Shown here: one piece after another, positions 225-38,661 of the stretch | Numbering within the stretch: the first letter of the stretch is position 1 | How the letters are laid out: every line of letters begins with the position of its first letter | IMG/VR virus record: IMGVR_UViG_3300021425_001636 | Coordinates: 1 to 45,810 of that record | Source: a virus | Strand: one strand, 5' to 3' | Length of the DNA stretch: 45,810 bases | Notes under the pieces: generated by a model | Told to the model about the DNA's origin: nothing | Databases searched by the model: none | What the model saw: only the letters and a program-made list of their open reading frames with translations | Translations under genes and position numbers: made by a program

Positions 225-818
225 ATGTCAAACATATTCAACAGACTGGAACTACAAGCATTCCGTGCGGGTGTAACACCTCGTACCAAGGAATCCCGTG
301 AATGGTTTAGAAAGAAGGCATCCAATCTTCGTTCTATCAATCGTGAAGCATTGATGAAAGAAGAACCTTTGAAACAAAGGTCAAAGAGTGGTGTGGTAGG
401 AACAATGCAGATGTTCTTCTACGATCCCAAACACAAGGATACACTTCCATACTACGATTTGTTTCCTTTGGTTATTGTGGTTGGGCCAGCAGAAGGTGGG
501 TTCTATGGATTGAATCTACATTATCTTCCACCTCTTCTTCGTGCAAAGATGTTGGATTCATTGATGGAAGTTGCGACTAGTAAGACATCGGATGATGCCA
601 AGTTCGCAATTACATATAAAAGATTACAGAGTATTGCAAAGTTGCGATACTATAAACCGTGTTTTAAACACTACTTGAACAAACACATAAAGAGTAGATT
701 TGCAGAAGTTCCCGCACCAGAATGGGAGATTGCAACCTTTCTACCAACCGCACAGTTCCGTAAGGCGAACTCGCAGAAAGTGTTCTACGATTCAAGACAG
801 ATGATAGGTAAAGACTAA
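225..818 (+). CDS. conserved T4-like virion/packaging protein, possibly DNA end protector (gp2)-like
   Basis: 197 residues. The central block with FFYDPKHKDTLPYYD, VVGPAEGGFYGLN and HYLPPLLRAKMLD is, from memory, highly conserved in marine T4-like phages, where relatives are often annotated as DNA end protector (T4 gp2). That name could not be verified here and the protein is shorter than T4 gp2. The N-terminus is basic (RTKESREWFRKKA). It lies between a gp4-like gene and a tail-tube-like gene, so a virion assembly role is likely. Expression is from the late promoter immediately upstream. The ATG is preferred because the promoter fits it exactly. The next gene starts on the last base of its stop codon (TAATG). 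Confidence 0.55.
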   Translation: MSNIFNRLELQAFRAGVTPRTKESREWFRKKASNLRSINREALMKEEPLKQRSKSGVVGTMQMFFYDPKHKDTLPYYDLFPLVIVVGPAEGGFYGLNLHYLPPLLRAKMLDSLMEVATSKTSDDAKFAITYKRLQSIAKLRYYKPCFKHYLNKHIKSRFAEVPAPEWEIATFLPTAQFRKANSQKVFYDSRQMIGKD

Positions 819-1519
819 TGGCATTTCAGATTGACGATTTCAAGTCAGAGATTGGTAAAGGCGGTGGTATCGCCATGGGGAATCTGTATAAGATTTTCCT
901 ACCACCGATCAAAGGTGATGCAAGATCACTAAATATGTTGTGCAAAGCGACATCACTGCCTGGCAGACAAATCCTATCAAACGAAAAACAGATGGGTCTG
1001 GATAACATGAAAGTTGCATATGGTTATGCAGTTACAGATGTTACACTGACCTTCCATTGTCTGAATGACATGGGTGTGAGAGAATACTTTGAACTGTGGC
1101 AAAATCAAGCAGTCAATCAAGAGACCAAAGAAGTTGGATACTTCAATGATTACACCCATCCAGTGATTATCCAACATATTAAGAAAGGCACATCCTTTCC
1201 CATTAAAAAGGAAAAGATATATGATTCTGGTAAAATTCCCTCAACGATTCGAGGAAGATTACCAAGACTAGGGCCGTTAGACCTTGCACAAGGTGAGGTT
1301 GATGTAAGTGCGGTATTCGGTGACGATATCACCTATACTTGTGTCCTAGATAAAGCATACCCAACAACATTACAAGCGATTGAGTTGAGTGATGACGGAC
1401 AGTTACTTGAAGTGACAGTAGAATTATCATACAAGAACTGGAAGTCAAAGAGTGGTGACCGTGTAGGCAGTGACTTCATTGAAGGACTTGCAGGGGAACT
1501 AATTAGAAAATTTTTATAA
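818..1519 (+). CDS. tail-tube family protein (gp19/gp54-like)
   Basis: 233 residues. The N-terminus (MAFQIDDFKSEIGKGGG, then a segment LYKIFLPP) followed by LPGRQILS, TDVTLTFHCLND and YFELWQNQAV resembles the T4 tail-tube fold shared by gp19, gp48 and gp54. It is longer than gp19 (about 163 residues) and shorter than gp54 (about 320), so it could be the tube protein or the baseplate tube initiator. The start overlaps the preceding stop as TAATG, with AGGTAAAG as ribosome binding site, which argues for translational coupling. The neighbouring gp26-like and tape-measure-like genes support a tail role. Confidence 0.6.
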   Translation: MAFQIDDFKSEIGKGGGIAMGNLYKIFLPPIKGDARSLNMLCKATSLPGRQILSNEKQMGLDNMKVAYGYAVTDVTLTFHCLNDMGVREYFELWQNQAVNQETKEVGYFNDYTHPVIIQHIKKGTSFPIKKEKIYDSGKIPSTIRGRLPRLGPLDLAQGEVDVSAVFGDDITYTCVLDKAYPTTLQAIELSDDGQLLEVTVELSYKNWKSKSGDRVGSDFIEGLAGELIRKFL

Positions 1520-1534
1520 TAGGTGGAGTAAATT

Positions 1535-2242
1535 ATGGCATTACCTAAGTTAAACGCAACACCCAGCCACGAGATGGTTCAACCATCAACTGGAGAGAGG
1601 GTGTCATATAGACCCTATCTGGTCAAGGAAGAGAAGATACTACTTCTCGCATTTGAATCAAATGACCAGAAACAGGCAATGAGAGCAATGATTGATACCG
1701 TTGTGACTTGTTGTGAAAATGTGAATAAAGACGAACTCACAGTATTTGATGTTGAGTATATGTTTACACAGATTCGTTCTCGTTCGGTGGGAGAGTCTTC
1801 ACAGGTTCAGATCAAATGTGAGAATGAAGAATGTGGTAAAATGAGTGCAGTCGATATCAATCTACAAGAGATTAATGTCGATGTTCCCGATATGGAAAAG
1901 GTTGTTGAATTGACACCTACTGTATCGATAGAATTGAAGTGGCCATCCTTTGATGACTTCTTGATAAATTTTGATAACGATATGTCAGAGACAGAGTTTG
2001 GATTCAAGATGGTCGCAAAATGTATTGGTGCAATCCTGACAGAAGATGAAAGGATTGATGCGAAAGAAATTAACCCCAAAGAGTTGTCAGAGTTTATTGA
2101 CTCAATGACTAATACTCAGTTTGAGAAGATTGGTGGTTATGTAAGTAATGCGCCCCAGATGAAACATGATGTTTCGTTTGCGTGTGAACACTGTAATACA
2201 TTACAAACTAGAGAATTGAGAGGTATCCAAGATTTTTTTTAG
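1535..2242 (+). CDS. 26: gp26-like baseplate hub / tail assembly protein
   Basis: 235 residues with a good ribosome binding site (AGGTGGAG). The ordering of an N-terminal alpha/beta region, a CxxxxC pair (C95, C100) and a second CxxC pair (C217, C220) indicates a zinc ribbon and matches the T4 gp26 family of baseplate hub proteins. The last codons are GAT TTT TTT TAG, so a U-UUU-UUU slippery heptamer abuts the stop. A -1 slip there would fuse the protein to the ORF that starts on the stop codon. Immediately downstream is a tape-measure-like gene, so the gene sits where other tailed phages keep their frameshifted tail assembly chaperone. Confidence 0.65.
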   Translation: MALPKLNATPSHEMVQPSTGERVSYRPYLVKEEKILLLAFESNDQKQAMRAMIDTVVTCCENVNKDELTVFDVEYMFTQIRSRSVGESSQVQIKCENEECGKMSAVDINLQEINVDVPDMEKVVELTPTVSIELKWPSFDDFLINFDNDMSETEFGFKMVAKCIGAILTEDERIDAKEINPKELSEFIDSMTNTQFEKIGGYVSNAPQMKHDVSFACEHCNTLQTRELRGIQDFF

Positions 2243-2256
2243 TGTGCCTCTCACAC
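2233..2256 (+). promoter_or_regulatory. candidate -1 programmed frameshift site
   Basis: Eight T residues at 2233-2240 place the heptamer T TTT TTT (2233-2239) in the reading frame directly before the TAG at 2240-2242. A short hairpin follows: GTGTG at 2242-2246 pairs with CACAC at 2252-2256 around a CCTCT loop. The hairpin starts only two bases after the heptamer, closer than the usual 5 to 8 bases, so the in-frame stop may itself act as the stimulator. A -1 slip reads TTA GTG TGC and continues through the ORF to 2433. Confidence 0.6.
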
Positions 2257-2433
2257 GATAATTTAGTTAATCATTATAAGACTAATTTTGGTATGATGCA
2301 ACATCATAATTATTCGTTAACCGAATTAGAAAATATGATGCCGTTTGAGAGGGAAGTATATGTTGCTCTTTTGGTACAGCATCTAGAAGAAGAGAAAGAG
2401 CGACACGAACAAGAACAAAGAAAAATGAGTTAG
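2242..2433 (+). CDS. gp51-position ORF; probable -1 frameshift extension of the gp26-like protein
   Basis: 63 codons from a GTG that shares its G with the TAG of the upstream gene, in the -1 frame. No Shine-Dalgarno sequence is within range of the GTG, nor before the in-frame ATG ATG at 2293-2298. Expression by frameshifting would give a fusion of about 299 residues. The product has PFEREVYVALLVQHLEEEKE followed by a charged helical end. It occupies the place of T4 gene 51 (hub assembly catalyst), but it is far shorter than T4 gp51 (about 249 residues) and no sequence identity is claimed. Position, length and the slippery site recall the T domain of lambda gpG-T. Confidence 0.6.
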   Translation: MCLSHDNLVNHYKTNFGMMQHHNYSLTELENMMPFEREVYVALLVQHLEEEKERHEQEQRKMS

Positions 2434-14571: not shown

Positions 14572-15289
14572 CAACATCTTTTACATATTTCCATTTGTCC
14601 GATGGATAACATCCACCATGATAACTCTTGTGAAACATTCCCAATGGTTCGGATAGTATCTGATACCATCCCTCTTCTGCAGCTCTCAATCCTTTATCCT
14701 TATATAGAGAATCTACTAAGTCGGTATCCCAAATCTCTCTAGGGTGCATTATCAAACCATCATTGATATATTGTTTTTGCTCTTTACGCATATCAACGAG
14801 TTCGTTGTATCCATATATAGTTCTATAGTCCACACAGTTGAATCCTATCGGGAACACACCCTCGTATGACTCATCAAGAAAATCTTCCCAAGGGATAACC
14901 TCAGACACGACCACATCAAAACGAGTTCGAATAATCATGTCATATTCTTCGGGAATGGATTTCATCATCTCGTTGTGTATGAGAATCTGTTTGTGCCAGT
15001 TGGCAGAAGCGTAAGCTGATTTTGTGAGTTGATGTTCCAAACCCCTTTCAATAATACTACCAAACATTCTACGATACAGTTTACTCACGCCATTGGGGTA
15101 TGGTGAGATATCAAATATTGGGTGATATTCGTTCTCAGGTTCATCAAAGTAGTAGTCAACATCAAAGTCTTGACCCTTCCATGTACCAGTGAACATTCTA
15201 TCATGGGGTATTATTCGTTGTGTTCGGTCAATCCACTTCTGATTACAGTGTTCGTTCCATCTACCAGATAAACATAACGCAGTCTTCAT
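14552..15289 (-). CDS. sugar-transferase-like protein of the RxRxD family, copy 1
   Basis: 245 residues from MKTALCLSGRWNEH, with the ATG overlapping the upstream stop as TAATG. Features are ALCLSGR at the start, SANWHKQILIHNEMM, YDMIIRTRFDVVV with an RxRxD motif, and a C-terminal AEEGWYQILSEP then YHGGCYP. This is the pattern of small phage proteins thought to be glycosyltransferase-like; the chemistry is unproven. The genes at 32162-32899 (close) and 23028-23957 (distant) share it. Confidence 0.7.
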   Translation of the reverse strand: MKTALCLSGRWNEHCNQKWIDRTQRIIPHDRMFTGTWKGQDFDVDYYFDEPENEYHPIFDISPYPNGVSKLYRRMFGSIIERGLEHQLTKSAYASANWHKQILIHNEMMKSIPEEYDMIIRTRFDVVVSEVIPWEDFLDESYEGVFPIGFNCVDYRTIYGYNELVDMRKEQKQYINDGLIMHPREIWDTDLVDSLYKDKGLRAAEEGWYQILSEPLGMFHKSYHGGCYPSDKWKYVKDVDEGLHN

Positions 15290-16635
15290 TACCACTCACG
15301 CAGAAACTTCTCAAGGTCTTCGGGCGTACCAAGTCCCCACATCTCTTCTACATTGTGTGCGAATATCTTCTTACCCATCAGGATTGCCTGATTGAATACA
15401 GGACACACATAGAACTCACCGTTCACTCGTTTCTGCATTGCGATCATATCTTTTGCAGACTCAACATAGTCTTCACCATGTTTCCAGTAGTAGAAACCCA
15501 CAGTCGCATTGTCACTGATTGGGTCTTTCTCTGCAACCTTAGTGACCATACCATCATTATCAACCGCAGCGTAACTCCACTTGGGATGTGTCGCTTTGAA
15601 AGTAACAATACCACCATCTGCGTTTAACTCGTTCATCTTGTACAGGAAGTCAAGAGAATTCCATCCCACCCACTGATCAGAGTTTGCAATAAACAGTGGT
15701 TGGTCATTGTCGATATATTCTTCGGCAAGTAATGTAGTACAAGCTGCACCCTCAGTGATACCATCAACCTCAACAATCTTACAGTCAGGGGCAATCAAGT
15801 TCAACATATTGTCTAGGTTATACTTCTCACGATGTTCCTTCTGTACAATAAAGATGTAGTTCGCATCGATATTGATATTATCGACCACGGTCTGAATCAT
15901 CGGTTTACCATTGACATCAATCAAAGGTTTGGGGAAACTGTATCCTGCCTTCGCAAAACGACTACCCGCACCCGCCATAGGAATTAGTACATTCATTTTC
16001 TTATCCACCCACTTAGGTTTCGTTTGTTTCTCACCATCAATTAACTCAAGTAAATCTCTATTCACATATTCGGGAGAGTCCACCCTAATGATTTGATGTG
16101 CAGGCACACCAGAGTGATATGCAGATGCAAGACCCTTCGGTGAATCCTCAATGATAACACATTCTTCAGGATAGACACCAAACTCTGTCATTGCATTCCA
16201 CCACATTTCAGGGTGTGGTTTGGGATTGGTCACATCGAAAGTAGTCTGCACGATATCGATATACTCTTCCAAGTCCAACATCTTGATACACTTATGTACC
16301 GTCCTGTCGATGGCATTAGAACAGACACCAATCTTATAACCCCGTTGTTTTAGAATTCCAAAGAGTTCGGTAATATCGGCATCAGGTTTGATTGTGTTCA
16401 ACTTGTAATAAGTGACAGATTGTTTGTGTATAGAAATCTTATCCTTCAAGTCTTCTTCTACACCCAACATATCCAACTTCTCTTCGGTTGGTAGTCCATC
16501 AAATTTAGATAGATGTTCTTCCATAGAGATTTCTGGATATCCATATTTCACCAGTGCATCATTCAATGCATCAAAGTGAATCATCTTAGTGTCAACAAGG
16601 ACACCATCTAAATCGAACAGTACAAGTTTAATCAT
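15289..16635 (-). CDS. HAD phosphatase - sugar nucleotidyltransferase fusion
   Basis: 448 residues with two enzymes. Residues 1-205 form a HAD domain: FDLDGVLVDT (D8, D10), CSNA near 105, K139 in NPKPHPE and EDSPKG at 163-168. Residues 213-448 form a nucleotidyltransferase: VLIPMAGAGSRF with SFPKPLIDVNGKPM, then NSDQW for metal binding. Such a pair could remove a phosphate from a sugar bisphosphate and activate the product as NDP-sugar, as in heptose pathways where separate HAD and nucleotidyltransferase enzymes act in turn. It would supply donor sugar to the neighbouring transferases. Start overlaps the previous stop as ATGA. Confidence 0.85.
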   Translation of the reverse strand: MIKLVLFDLDGVLVDTKMIHFDALNDALVKYGYPEISMEEHLSKFDGLPTEEKLDMLGVEEDLKDKISIHKQSVTYYKLNTIKPDADITELFGILKQRGYKIGVCSNAIDRTVHKCIKMLDLEEYIDIVQTTFDVTNPKPHPEMWWNAMTEFGVYPEECVIIEDSPKGLASAYHSGVPAHQIIRVDSPEYVNRDLLELIDGEKQTKPKWVDKKMNVLIPMAGAGSRFAKAGYSFPKPLIDVNGKPMIQTVVDNINIDANYIFIVQKEHREKYNLDNMLNLIAPDCKIVEVDGITEGAACTTLLAEEYIDNDQPLFIANSDQWVGWNSLDFLYKMNELNADGGIVTFKATHPKWSYAAVDNDGMVTKVAEKDPISDNATVGFYYWKHGEDYVESAKDMIAMQKRVNGEFYVCPVFNQAILMGKKIFAHNVEEMWGLGTPEDLEKFLREW

Positions 16636-26030: not shown

Positions 26031-27548
26031 TTAGAATACCTTTACTTTATATTTTCGTTCCCACTCTTGGGCATCTTCTATTGTATTGACCATAGGTTTA
26101 TTCCGTATGTTCAATGATGTATTTAGTAACATCGGAACACCCGTTAATTTGTAGTATTCTTCTAGTATCTGACGGAGTACGGATTTGCAGTCTGGTTTTA
26201 CAAGTTGAACCCTTGCAGTGCCATCAACATGAGTAACAGACTTATAGTCATGTTTTGCGACTGCGGTGAACTGCATATATTCGTTCATTGGCCCTTCAAA
26301 GTAATCATCTGCGTGTTCTGATAGGATAGCAGGTGCAAAGGGTCTGAATCGATGTCTGCGTTTGATATCATTTACTGTATCCTTTACATCATATCTGACA
26401 TCTGCGAGTAGAGAACGATTACCTAACGCACGAGGGCCATACTCTGCACGACCATTTGCGACACCACAAACCTTGTTTTCAGAAAGATATTTTGCAACCT
26501 CTTTGGGGTCTATATCTCGTTCTATATTGTGTCCCAGATACGGACTAAAGTCCTTTAGGTGTGTTCCACCAGTCTCTTTATGCCATGTATATGTGGCACA
26601 ACCCAATGCACTACCCGCATCAGTAGGATTGATTGAGATGTGCATTTCATCAAACAGTTCTCGTATCATTGAGTTCGCAACAACATTCTGAGCGCATCCA
26701 CCAGAGTAGACTAGTTTAGAACCGTACTTGCGTGCCTCTTTCATAAGTTCCATGATTTCAACTTCAAAGAATTTCTGAACAGTAGCAGAAGCATCTTCAT
26801 CATTAATTTCTCCTATACGATCATCCATTCTTTGGTTATACTTAAAAAACTTATCGGAAAGAACACTTTCTGCACGAGCTGTTCCTTCAAACTCTACGAT
26901 TTGAGTGAGATTTCTCCCTTCTTCACTTTCGAACCAATGATAACAGTTGTGACATATATTATAGAGTTTTTCATCAACTTCACCATAGGCAGAGAGACCC
27001 ATGACAATATACTCATCTCTAAGTTTTTTCATTCCTAACAAACTGGTCACATGACCATAGATAGCGCCCAAGGATTGGGGCCAAAGAACTGACTTGATAG
27101 TATTAAAATTATGATCTTTGATTGAGATGGATTCCAATTCACCAGAACCGTCTACCGATACTAGTACGGTATCTTCTTTGGATTCCCAAGGACGAGTAAA
27201 GAATGCTAGAGCACTGTGACTTTCGTGATGTTGATTGAAATCATCGAACATCAACGAATTACGCATTGGGGTTGATTGTTCTCTTTTTTCGTTGTTAAAT
27301 CCCTTTTGTGACCAATCACCAAATGTTCGGTAACCACCCATCATTTCTCTACGCATATCTGCATCTTCGTAGAAGGTGACATGATCATCCTTGTTGGTCA
27401 AGTCCCACATTTCAGGGGGGATTAGATCATCATATTTTTTTCCACTATAACGCTCTGCCTGTGATGCAAACTCGACAGTACCGTCTTTATTGACGATAGC
27501 CAAGCCTGCATCGTGGAAATACTCGGAGTAACCTACATATCTTTTCAT
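26031..27548 (-). CDS. carbamoyltransferase, NodU/CmcH/TobZ family
   Basis: 505 residues, slightly shorter than typical members (about 550-600). The N-terminal domain has GYSEYFHDAGLAIV, FNQHHESHSALAFF (the paired histidines of the metal site) and VSVDGSGELES, and the C-terminal YrdC-like region has NGRAEYGPRALGNRSLLADV with FRPFAPAIL. Such enzymes make carbamoyl adenylate from carbamoyl phosphate and ATP and carbamoylate hydroxyl groups of sugars or antibiotics. Here a sugar in the island-made glycan is a natural substrate. Confidence 0.9.
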   Translation of the reverse strand: MKRYVGYSEYFHDAGLAIVNKDGTVEFASQAERYSGKKYDDLIPPEMWDLTNKDDHVTFYEDADMRREMMGGYRTFGDWSQKGFNNEKREQSTPMRNSLMFDDFNQHHESHSALAFFTRPWESKEDTVLVSVDGSGELESISIKDHNFNTIKSVLWPQSLGAIYGHVTSLLGMKKLRDEYIVMGLSAYGEVDEKLYNICHNCYHWFESEEGRNLTQIVEFEGTARAESVLSDKFFKYNQRMDDRIGEINDEDASATVQKFFEVEIMELMKEARKYGSKLVYSGGCAQNVVANSMIRELFDEMHISINPTDAGSALGCATYTWHKETGGTHLKDFSPYLGHNIERDIDPKEVAKYLSENKVCGVANGRAEYGPRALGNRSLLADVRYDVKDTVNDIKRRHRFRPFAPAILSEHADDYFEGPMNEYMQFTAVAKHDYKSVTHVDGTARVQLVKPDCKSVLRQILEEYYKLTGVPMLLNTSLNIRNKPMVNTIEDAQEWERKYKVKVF

Positions 27549-36675: not shown

Positions 36676-38661
36676 TTAGCCTTCACAAGCACGACATTCA
36701 TCGTCTTCGGTTGTTTCCATTGGTTTGTTTAAATATTCCATCAAATCTTCATAACCACCAACATACTCACCTTCGATGTAAATCTGTGGTACGGTCTTAA
36801 CATCTCGACCTGTTACTTCTTTTGCAGTCTTACCAATCTCTTGTAGGTCAATCTTATCAAACGGTATTCCTCTCAACTTCAACTCTTCCATTGCCATTGA
36901 ACAGAATGGACAGTTTGATTTACTATAAACGATTGACCTAGTATCACCCGCAAGTGCTACTCGTTCTACCTTTTCGGATACATTCTCTGCTCGTTGTTTC
37001 GCTTCGGTGCGTAGATAGTATAGACCCTTGAGTCCTTCTCTCCACGCCTTGAGATGCACCTTATTCACATAGGACTTCTCTGCACCAGCAGGGAAGAATA
37101 GGTTTACACTCTGACCTTGACAGATAAACTCTTGTCGTTCAGCCGCATGGGTTACTACCCAGTTTTGGTCTAACTCATCCGCAGTTCTGAAGATTGCCTT
37201 CTCACCTTCTGTCAGGAATGGTAGATGTTGTACCGAACCTTTGTTGGTAATAATAGATGTCCAGTTGGACTCGTTGTTCTCGTCCTTCTCGTCCAAGAGT
37301 CGAGTAAGGTACTTATTCTTCACAAGGAAACTACCCGCACGAGTTCTATGAGTATATGCATTCGCCTTCAATGGTTCTATTGACGGTGAAGTTGATAGTA
37401 TAACACCACTTGAGGCGTTAGGAGCAATCGCAAGAAGATGGGAATTTCTTCTTCCAGTTCCAACTCCATCTGGATATTCTCCTCTTTCCTCGGCAAGCAG
37501 TTCTGTTTCTGCGACTGCCTCGGAATTAATGTGGTTAAATACTGTTCGGTTGATTTCTCGTGCCGCTTCTGATTCCCATGCAACTCCGTGTTTCTGTAAC
37601 AAGGAATGGAATCCCATTGCTCCGAGTCCGATTGAGCGTTCTCGTTCTGCACTATATTTCGCTCTTGAGATTGTGTCGGGTGCTTCATCAACGAAATACT
37701 GCAAGACATTGTCAAGCATCCTAACAAGGTCACGAACAATAGTTGTATCTTTCCATTCATCGTAGTATTCTAGATTCAGAGATGATAAACAACACACCGC
37801 AGTTCGTTCTGCACTGGTTGGTAGGTGAATCTCATTACAGAGATTCGATCCGTGAATCTTTAGTCCTTTGTCTTTTAATGATTCGGGTAACGCTTTGTTT
37901 GCAGTATCAATAAAGTTGAGATATGGTTCACCTGTTCGGAAACGAGTCTCAAGGATTCGTTCCCATAGTTTACGAGCATTGATGGTTTCTTTTACTTGTC
38001 CATCCTTGGGGTCACGCAGATCAAAAGAACTTCCCTGTTGAACCGCTTCCATAAACTCATCGGTAATGTTAATCGCATTGTGTAGGTTGAGTGCCTTTCT
38101 TTGTACATCTCCAGTAGGAATACGCAGATTCAGAAACTCAATAACATCTGGATGACTTACATCCATATAGGCTGCATATGAACCCTTACGAGTCTTACCT
38201 TGTCGGTATGCAATCATATCCGCATCTACGGTATGTAGAAACGGAATCGGGCCAGGCGCAATGTCGGATACTGTGCGAACATCACTCCAGTGTCCACCGA
38301 CACCACCACCCATAACCGATAACCATCGTAGTTCGGATGAGTGTCCGATTAGTCCTTCTAGTGTGTCAGGCACATAGGTAAGGAAACAACTGATAGGCAT
38401 TCCTTTACCCTTACCATGACCGTTGGGTGCATTCGATAGAACTGGTGATGCAAACATGAACCACTTGTTGGACACATAGTCATACAACCGTTGTGCCAAC
38501 TCGTCATCCATCTCATCACGATACTTACTCCATGCTTTACTTGCTCTTGCGAAACCCTCTTGTGGACTTTTTTCATAATCATTTAAATAGAAATCTTTTA
38601 ACATCCCTACTGCATATTCGGCTAGTAGGTCATCTTTCTTCTTATCAATTTTGAGGGTCAT
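36676..38661 (-). CDS. nrdA: ribonucleotide reductase class Ia, alpha subunit with embedded glutaredoxin
   Basis: 661 residues. The catalytic barrel shows C92 in PISCFLTYVP, N273-C275-E277 in GSNLCNEIHLP, C290 in AVCCLSSLNL and Y548/Y549 in LKGLYYLR, equivalent to C225, N437/C439/E441, C462 and Y730/Y731 of the E. coli enzyme. Residues 575-650 are a glutaredoxin: CPFC at 584-587, TVP with P625 and GGYEDL. The C-terminal redox pair C656/C659 (CRAC) follows it, so the reductant is inserted between barrel and tail. The N-terminal ATP cone is absent, so allosteric shut-off by dATP is probably lost. Confidence 0.95.
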   Translation of the reverse strand: MTLKIDKKKDDLLAEYAVGMLKDFYLNDYEKSPQEGFARASKAWSKYRDEMDDELAQRLYDYVSNKWFMFASPVLSNAPNGHGKGKGMPISCFLTYVPDTLEGLIGHSSELRWLSVMGGGVGGHWSDVRTVSDIAPGPIPFLHTVDADMIAYRQGKTRKGSYAAYMDVSHPDVIEFLNLRIPTGDVQRKALNLHNAINITDEFMEAVQQGSSFDLRDPKDGQVKETINARKLWERILETRFRTGEPYLNFIDTANKALPESLKDKGLKIHGSNLCNEIHLPTSAERTAVCCLSSLNLEYYDEWKDTTIVRDLVRMLDNVLQYFVDEAPDTISRAKYSAERERSIGLGAMGFHSLLQKHGVAWESEAAREINRTVFNHINSEAVAETELLAEERGEYPDGVGTGRRNSHLLAIAPNASSGVILSTSPSIEPLKANAYTHRTRAGSFLVKNKYLTRLLDEKDENNESNWTSIITNKGSVQHLPFLTEGEKAIFRTADELDQNWVVTHAAERQEFICQGQSVNLFFPAGAEKSYVNKVHLKAWREGLKGLYYLRTEAKQRAENVSEKVERVALAGDTRSIVYSKSNCPFCSMAMEELKLRGIPFDKIDLQEIGKTAKEVTGRDVKTVPQIYIEGEYVGGYEDLMEYLNKPMETTEDDECRACEG

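Follow-up and report, generated by a model that had tools for sequence, protein, structure and literature searches.

The −1 frameshift of the lambda-type tail assembly chaperone, which gives rise to gpG and gpGT, was reportedly described by Xu, Hendrix and Duda in 2004. Lambda shares with the locus analyzed here a −1 slip near the 3′ end of the tail chaperone gene, a long form with a small C-terminal domain and the placement of the gene between the tail tube and tape-measure genes (PMC5009743). The same 2016 review describes tail chaperone frameshifting as a conserved feature of long-tailed phages 'except T4' (PMC5009743). Later sources bring T4-like phages into this scheme. Vladimirov, Gautam and Davidson (2022; Virology 566:9-15), as cited in PMC10885494, assigned the T4-like chaperone genes, and PMC10885494 also describes some T4-like phages in which a short gene is accompanied by a long fused one. 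PMC12846349, citing the same authors, mentions poly-T slip sites for the TAC-N genes of T4-like phages. A similar case described outside the T4-like phages is the myovirus Adele, in which a poly-T slip with a GTTTTT motif is found where TAC-N ends, ahead of the tape-measure gene, and the −1 frame is open in all alleles (PMC12846349); Adele belongs to Vandenendeviridae/Andersonviridae, which are other phage families than that of the phage studied here.

Tail chaperone frameshifting is thus classical, and the T4-like case has probably already been noted in outline. The initial annotation of the present locus stated that no description was known for the T4 gp26-gp51 pair, a statement that is outdated in light of Vladimirov et al. 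2022 as cited in PMC10885494 and PMC12846349. A literature search of incomplete coverage found no description of the frameshift in cyanophages or pelagiphages. The present study adds the breadth of the arrangement, a T4 control, the exact position of the frame switch, the lack of a served start for the second frame and the unjoined state of current annotations.

Results

The gp26-gp51 junction

The window, i.e. the whole stretch of DNA analyzed in this study, is a 45,810-base metagenomic virus record. It represents a T4-like phage whose nearest named records are marine Kyanoviridae phages, and the gene order around its DNA end protector equals that of C48C1, OLIVR6, RHph_I9 and PG216. The features of the locus are listed in Table 1. 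The chaperone candidate is placed between a tail tube-like gene and a tape-measure-like gene on the basis of PHROG matches, of which the latter are weak. The gene downstream of the candidate had been called tape-measure-like initially, and weak profile matches together with its position point, if weakly, to the same assignment. The PHROGs profiles matched by the two frames of the candidate are labelled baseplate hub/gp26 (PHROG 150) and baseplate hub assembly catalyst/gp51 (PHROG 634).

Table 1. Coordinates of the chaperone locus and its neighbours in the window.
Feature	Coordinates	Strand	Basis
DNA end protector (gp2-like)	225..818	+	PHROG 429, 2.9e-51
Tail tube protein-like gene, before the chaperone	818..1519	+	PHROG 45 tail tube, 3.3e-30
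gp26-like gene, short form (TAC-N), 235 aa, 26.8 kDa	1535..2242	+	Pfam T4_baseplate, 2.8e-53; PHROG 150, 9.7e-54
SD-like GAGAGG, 9 nt 5′ of the slip site; possible stimulator	2218..2223	+	Sequence
Slippery heptamer T_TTT_TTT in the gp26 frame	2233..2239	+	Sequence; in-phase T_TTT_TTN at 204/205 distinct junctions
−1 frame extension (putative gp51 domain), 64 codons after the slip	2239..2433	+	PHROG 634, 6.5e-28
gp26 stop TAG, codon directly after the slip site	2240..2242	+	Sequence
GTGTG-CCTCT-CACAC hairpin, −4.8 kcal/mol; role uncertain	2242..2256	+	Folding; not conserved
Tape-measure-like gene after the chaperone, 547 aa	2438..4081	+	PHROG 4200 tape measure, 1.4e-6; PHROG 167 tape measure, 4e-5

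Three genes elsewhere in the window, all on the minus strand, were noticed in passing. The ribonucleotide reductase large subunit (36676-38661) matches a thioredoxin-domain family in its C-terminal part, at residues 577-646 (4.6e-13), apparently as a fusion. A Nol-like carbamoyltransferase (26031-27548; PHROG 1601, 3.5e-87) is an unusual accessory gene. The 448-aa product of 15289-16635 is HAD-hydrolase-like in its N-terminal part and matches a family of unknown function, PHROG 3980, in its C-terminal part (3.4e-74).

The junction reads ...CAA GAT TTT TTT TAG TGT GCC..., with eight T residues at 2233-2240, and the heptamer T_TTT_TTT stands in X_XXY_YYZ phase relative to the gp26 frame. The initial annotation was accurate in placing a slippery site directly against the gp26 stop. 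It also correctly described a 63-codon ORF that starts on this stop in the −1 frame and lacks a Shine-Dalgarno sequence. The mechanical ORF call for the gp51 domain spans 2242-2433, its GTG start overlaps the gp26 stop, and aSD hybridization 5′ of the GTG amounts to −0.7 kcal/mol, as compared with a median of −5.9 kcal/mol at the gp26 starts of the relatives. Re-pairing in the −1 frame at the slip site gives ...DFFLVCLSHD..., and the predicted peptide across the site is GIQDFFLVCLSHDNLVNHYK. The predicted fusion protein, gp26-51 (TAC-NC), consists of 299 residues with a mass of 34.6 kDa.

Conservation of the slip site and the frame switch

The gp26 junctions were gathered from IMG/VR and from phage isolates. 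Removal of identical junctions left 205 distinct junctions outside T4's own group, and 70 junctions with <60% amino-acid identity to one another serve as representatives; protein scans that used the KVP40-like and Rhizobium gp26 proteins as single queries yielded few loci. An in-phase T_TTT_TTN near the gp26 stop is present at 204 of the 205 distinct junctions and in 69 of the 70 representatives. The heptamer takes the form TTTTTTC at 119 distinct junctions, TTTTTTT at 73, TTTTTTA at 8 and TTTTTTG at 4. Elsewhere in the gp26 genes of the relatives, the in-phase hexamer T_TTT_TT occupies 16 of 47,553 codon positions. The slip site is far from chance, and the contrast is very large, although the counts are not independent because the sequences share ancestry.

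The distribution of stop codons in the representatives locates the change of frame. The 0 frame contains no stop in 1,587 codons upstream of the site and 202 stops in the 1,449 codons that make up the first 21 positions downstream. The −1 frame contains 237 stops upstream and none downstream, either in the same 1,449 codons or in the 2,056 codons of the next 30 positions, and it is open over 50 codons after the slip site in the 69 representatives. Judged from these stops, the reading frame switches exactly at the slip site. The −1-frame peptide is kept from the slip site onward, before any methionine, as L-x-x-L-S-H-D-x-L, and the homology of the gp51-like ORF extends up to the slip site. Nearest-neighbour differences in the first 16 −1-frame codons number 105, 58 and 288 at codon positions 1, 2 and 3, respectively; this substitution pattern is the one expected of a translated sequence and places the extension right after the slip site under coding constraint.

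The same arrangement is found in the sequenced isolates S-PM2, P-SSM2, P-RSM6, Mosig, Melnitz, PG216 and RHph_I9, many of which have only six T residues. The KVP40-like Vibrio phage PG216 retains the slip site as a member of T4's own family. The −1 frameshift joining gp26 to gp51 that was suggested initially from the window is strongly supported by these comparisons. The aligned relatives conserve both the slippery run and the −1 frame, and rather than lacking the run and supplying the second ORF with its own ribosome binding site, they keep the heptamer and have starts without a Shine-Dalgarno sequence.

The sole non-T4-type junction without the slippery heptamer belongs to Vibrio phage K447 (L093, 1357-2097) and reads CTT TTC AAG TAA TGG. 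The gp51-like −1 frame is present in this phage, and an ATG sits on the gp26 stop. Given CTTTTC in place of the heptamer and this ATG, K447 may use reinitiation or another site. In Pelagibacter phage Mosig (L083, around 1495-1525), the slip site does not abut the gp26 stop but precedes it by 31 bases, which leaves gp26 with a tail of 8 residues in overlap with the −1 frame; as annotated, gp51 of Mosig begins too late and omits conserved residues. None of the 13 annotated non-T4 records examined joins the two frames, as two genes are listed, gp51 is truncated or it is omitted. In S-WAM1 (L082) and S-SSM4 (L096), the gp51 extension is unannotated between gp26 and the next gene though it is fully conserved.

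Possible stimulatory elements

The initial annotation pointed to a GTGTG/CACAC hairpin at once after the slip site. The hairpin is indeed present in the window, but it is not conserved in close relatives. It begins 2 nt after the slip site, which is unusually close, and its comparison with synonymous recoding gives a p value of 0.004 over a 20-nt span and of 0.12-0.20 over spans of 30-50 nt. RNAalifold, applied to all sequences, found no common 3′ stem-loop across the relatives, and structure was therefore tested as a lineage-specific property against synonymous recoding. The 48 nt 3′ of the site are more stable than their synonymous recodings (mean z −1.55; 44 representatives), an excess that decays to zero further downstream, and long perfect stems occur in some lineages, such as that of S-PM2. 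On the strength of these folding comparisons, any stimulatory structure is probably lineage-specific.

A second candidate element is an SD-like sequence. The codon before a conserved Gly is GAG in 54 of 71 Glu cases (76%), as against 31% in the gene body (mean z −1.06), and this preference yields an SD-like GGAGG near the slip site in the relatives. The SD-like GAGAGG of the window itself has an unremarkable value (z −0.4). Averaged across the relatives, the candidate stimulators are significant; no common fold was found among them, and those of the window itself do not clearly stand out.

T4 as a natural control

T4 and its close relatives encode gp26 and gp51 in separate genes that are transcribed divergently. 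The slip heptamer is absent from all 11 T4-type gp26 genes checked, most of which still encode FF, mostly as TTC TTT. In hhalign comparisons with the predicted fusion, the match of the T4 gp51 profile runs through the junction and takes in nearly the whole length of gp51 (residues 14-245 with 22-279, E 1.6e-21), whereas that of the T4 gp26 profile stops at the FF before the slip site (E 4.4e-29) and leaves out the extension. T4 gp26 is accordingly the homologue of the short form, and T4 gp51 is that of the predicted fusion. The paralogous T4 proteins are a natural counterpart of the predicted 235/299-aa pair, in which a short and a long form share the N domain. Unlike the window, T4 uses the divergent gene pair for its two forms and has no slip site. 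Such a pattern would be expected if the fusion arose through frameshifting in one lineage and through gene duplication in the other. The disappearance of the slip site coincides exactly with the presence of a separate gene for the long form, which makes the T4 group a clean natural control.

Structural models

The gp26 protein of the window was modelled with AF2 (pLDDT 94.3), and T4 gp51 was folded as a natural stand-in for the fusion protein. Foldseek ranked the HK97 tail assembly chaperone 2ob9 as the most probable PDB match of the gp26 model (probability 0.77; 92 columns; TM normalized by target 0.48), but its E value of 0.64 is not significant; all other PDB matches have probabilities below 0.1 among the matches listed. 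The HK97 match is suggestive of a chaperone fold and is not proof of it. The PDB fold search with the T4 gp51 model gave no match, and a PDB sequence search with gp26 and T4 gp51 found nothing.

Discussion

We propose that the gp26-gp51 locus of the window is a single gene that very probably uses −1 programmed frameshifting to give a short (gp26, 235 aa) and a long (gp26-51, 299 aa) tail assembly chaperone before the tape-measure gene. Most ribosomes would read gp26 to its stop and produce the short chaperone, TAC-N. A minority would slip back by one base on U_UUU_UUU, where tRNA-Phe would re-pair with UUU, bypass the UAG directly behind it and continue into the gp51 domain to produce the long form, TAC-NC. 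Comparison of the relatives argues for this mechanism through an in-phase slip site, an exact frame switch, an extension without a conserved or Shine-Dalgarno-served start and a natural single-ORF homologue of the fusion, T4 gp51. We infer the slippage in the window phage itself, its efficiency and the action of the products as chaperones on the tape-measure protein.

The position in the order tube, chaperone and tape measure and the short/long logic suggest products that belong with lambda gpG/gpGT among the tail assembly chaperones. In analogy to gpG and gpGT, we would expect the short form to coat the tape-measure product of the next gene downstream and the long form to recruit tail tube subunits through its C-terminal domain. 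The locus differs from that of lambda in belonging to a contractile-tailed, T4-like phage and in having an unrelated slip heptamer, a larger N domain and a stop codon directly against, or a little after, the slip site.

The gp51 domain could also arise without a ribosomal slip. Ribosomes that end gp26 at TAG might restart at the overlapping GTG (2242) and make a free 63-aa gp51 by translational coupling. The overlap of GTG and stop in the window would suit such coupling, as would the ATG that lies over the stop in the KVP40-like PG216, Yut3 and RHph_I9, for which a separate gp51 is annotated. However, the GTG is replaced by GTA, ATA or GCG even in close relatives, and in 32 of the 69 representatives the first 17 codons of the −1 frame include neither ATG nor GTG nor TTG, though the peptide is conserved there. 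At the first available −1-frame starts of the relatives, aSD hybridization detects no Shine-Dalgarno sequence, with a median of +0.4 kcal/mol that is weaker than at random positions and contrasts with the value at gp26 starts. Moreover, reinitiation would not maintain an in-phase heptamer at nearly every junction. These start-codon data make separate initiation of the gp51 domain unlikely and coupling very improbable; in those relatives that have an ATG overlapping the gp26 stop, reinitiation could add free gp51. The window's run of eight T residues is near the length at which RNA polymerase slippage can begin, and such slippage would place gp26 and gp51 in one frame in part of the mRNA. The run of only six T residues in most relatives argues against transcriptional slippage: the commonest form, T_TTT_TTC (119/205), is always in X_XXY_YYZ phase, and what is conserved is the ribosomal slip motif and not the run length. 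We regard transcriptional slippage as extremely unlikely. Homopolymers are error-prone and the window stems from a metagenomic record, so a sequencing or assembly error might have split one continuous ORF, but the same arrangement recurs in 204 distinct junctions and in sequenced isolates, many with six T residues. The chance of such an error is negligible, and the agreeing isolates named above refute it.

A different question is what the two products do if the frameshift is real. They might be baseplate-hub assembly factors, as T4 gp26 and gp51 are classically named, rather than tape-measure chaperones. T4 gp51 is needed for assembly and absent from the final particle (PMC3004832), T4 genetics calls both proteins hub assembly chaperones, and the structural data give a chaperone fold little direct support. 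Against this stand the position of the gene directly between the tail-tube-like and tape-measure-like genes, the short/long isoform logic as in lambda and the HK97 chaperone as the most probable fold match of the model. The title of Vladimirov et al. 2022 also assigns T4-like tail assembly chaperone genes. A pure hub function is rather unlikely in our assessment. The T4 tape-measure protein, gp29, is itself a hub component, and the hub and chaperone readings may therefore coincide.

The proposed frameshift also bears on the history of the T4 superfamily. We consider it likely that in the ancestor of the superfamily a single gene with a −1 frameshift at U_UUU_UUN supplied the chaperone pair, a state that cyanophages, pelagiphages and the rhizobial and Vibrio relatives retain, and that only T4's own group duplicated this gene into genes 26 and 51; the 'hub assembly catalyst' gp51 of T4 would then be the fixed, unshifted long isoform. 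We infer the ancestral state from the distribution of the arrangement. The T4 contrast shows that recoding is replaceable by gene duplication. The present analysis identifies gp26 and gp51 of an abundant marine phage group as, very probably, one frameshifted gene, and correct annotation of this gene would supply full-length chaperone sequences for structural and assembly work.
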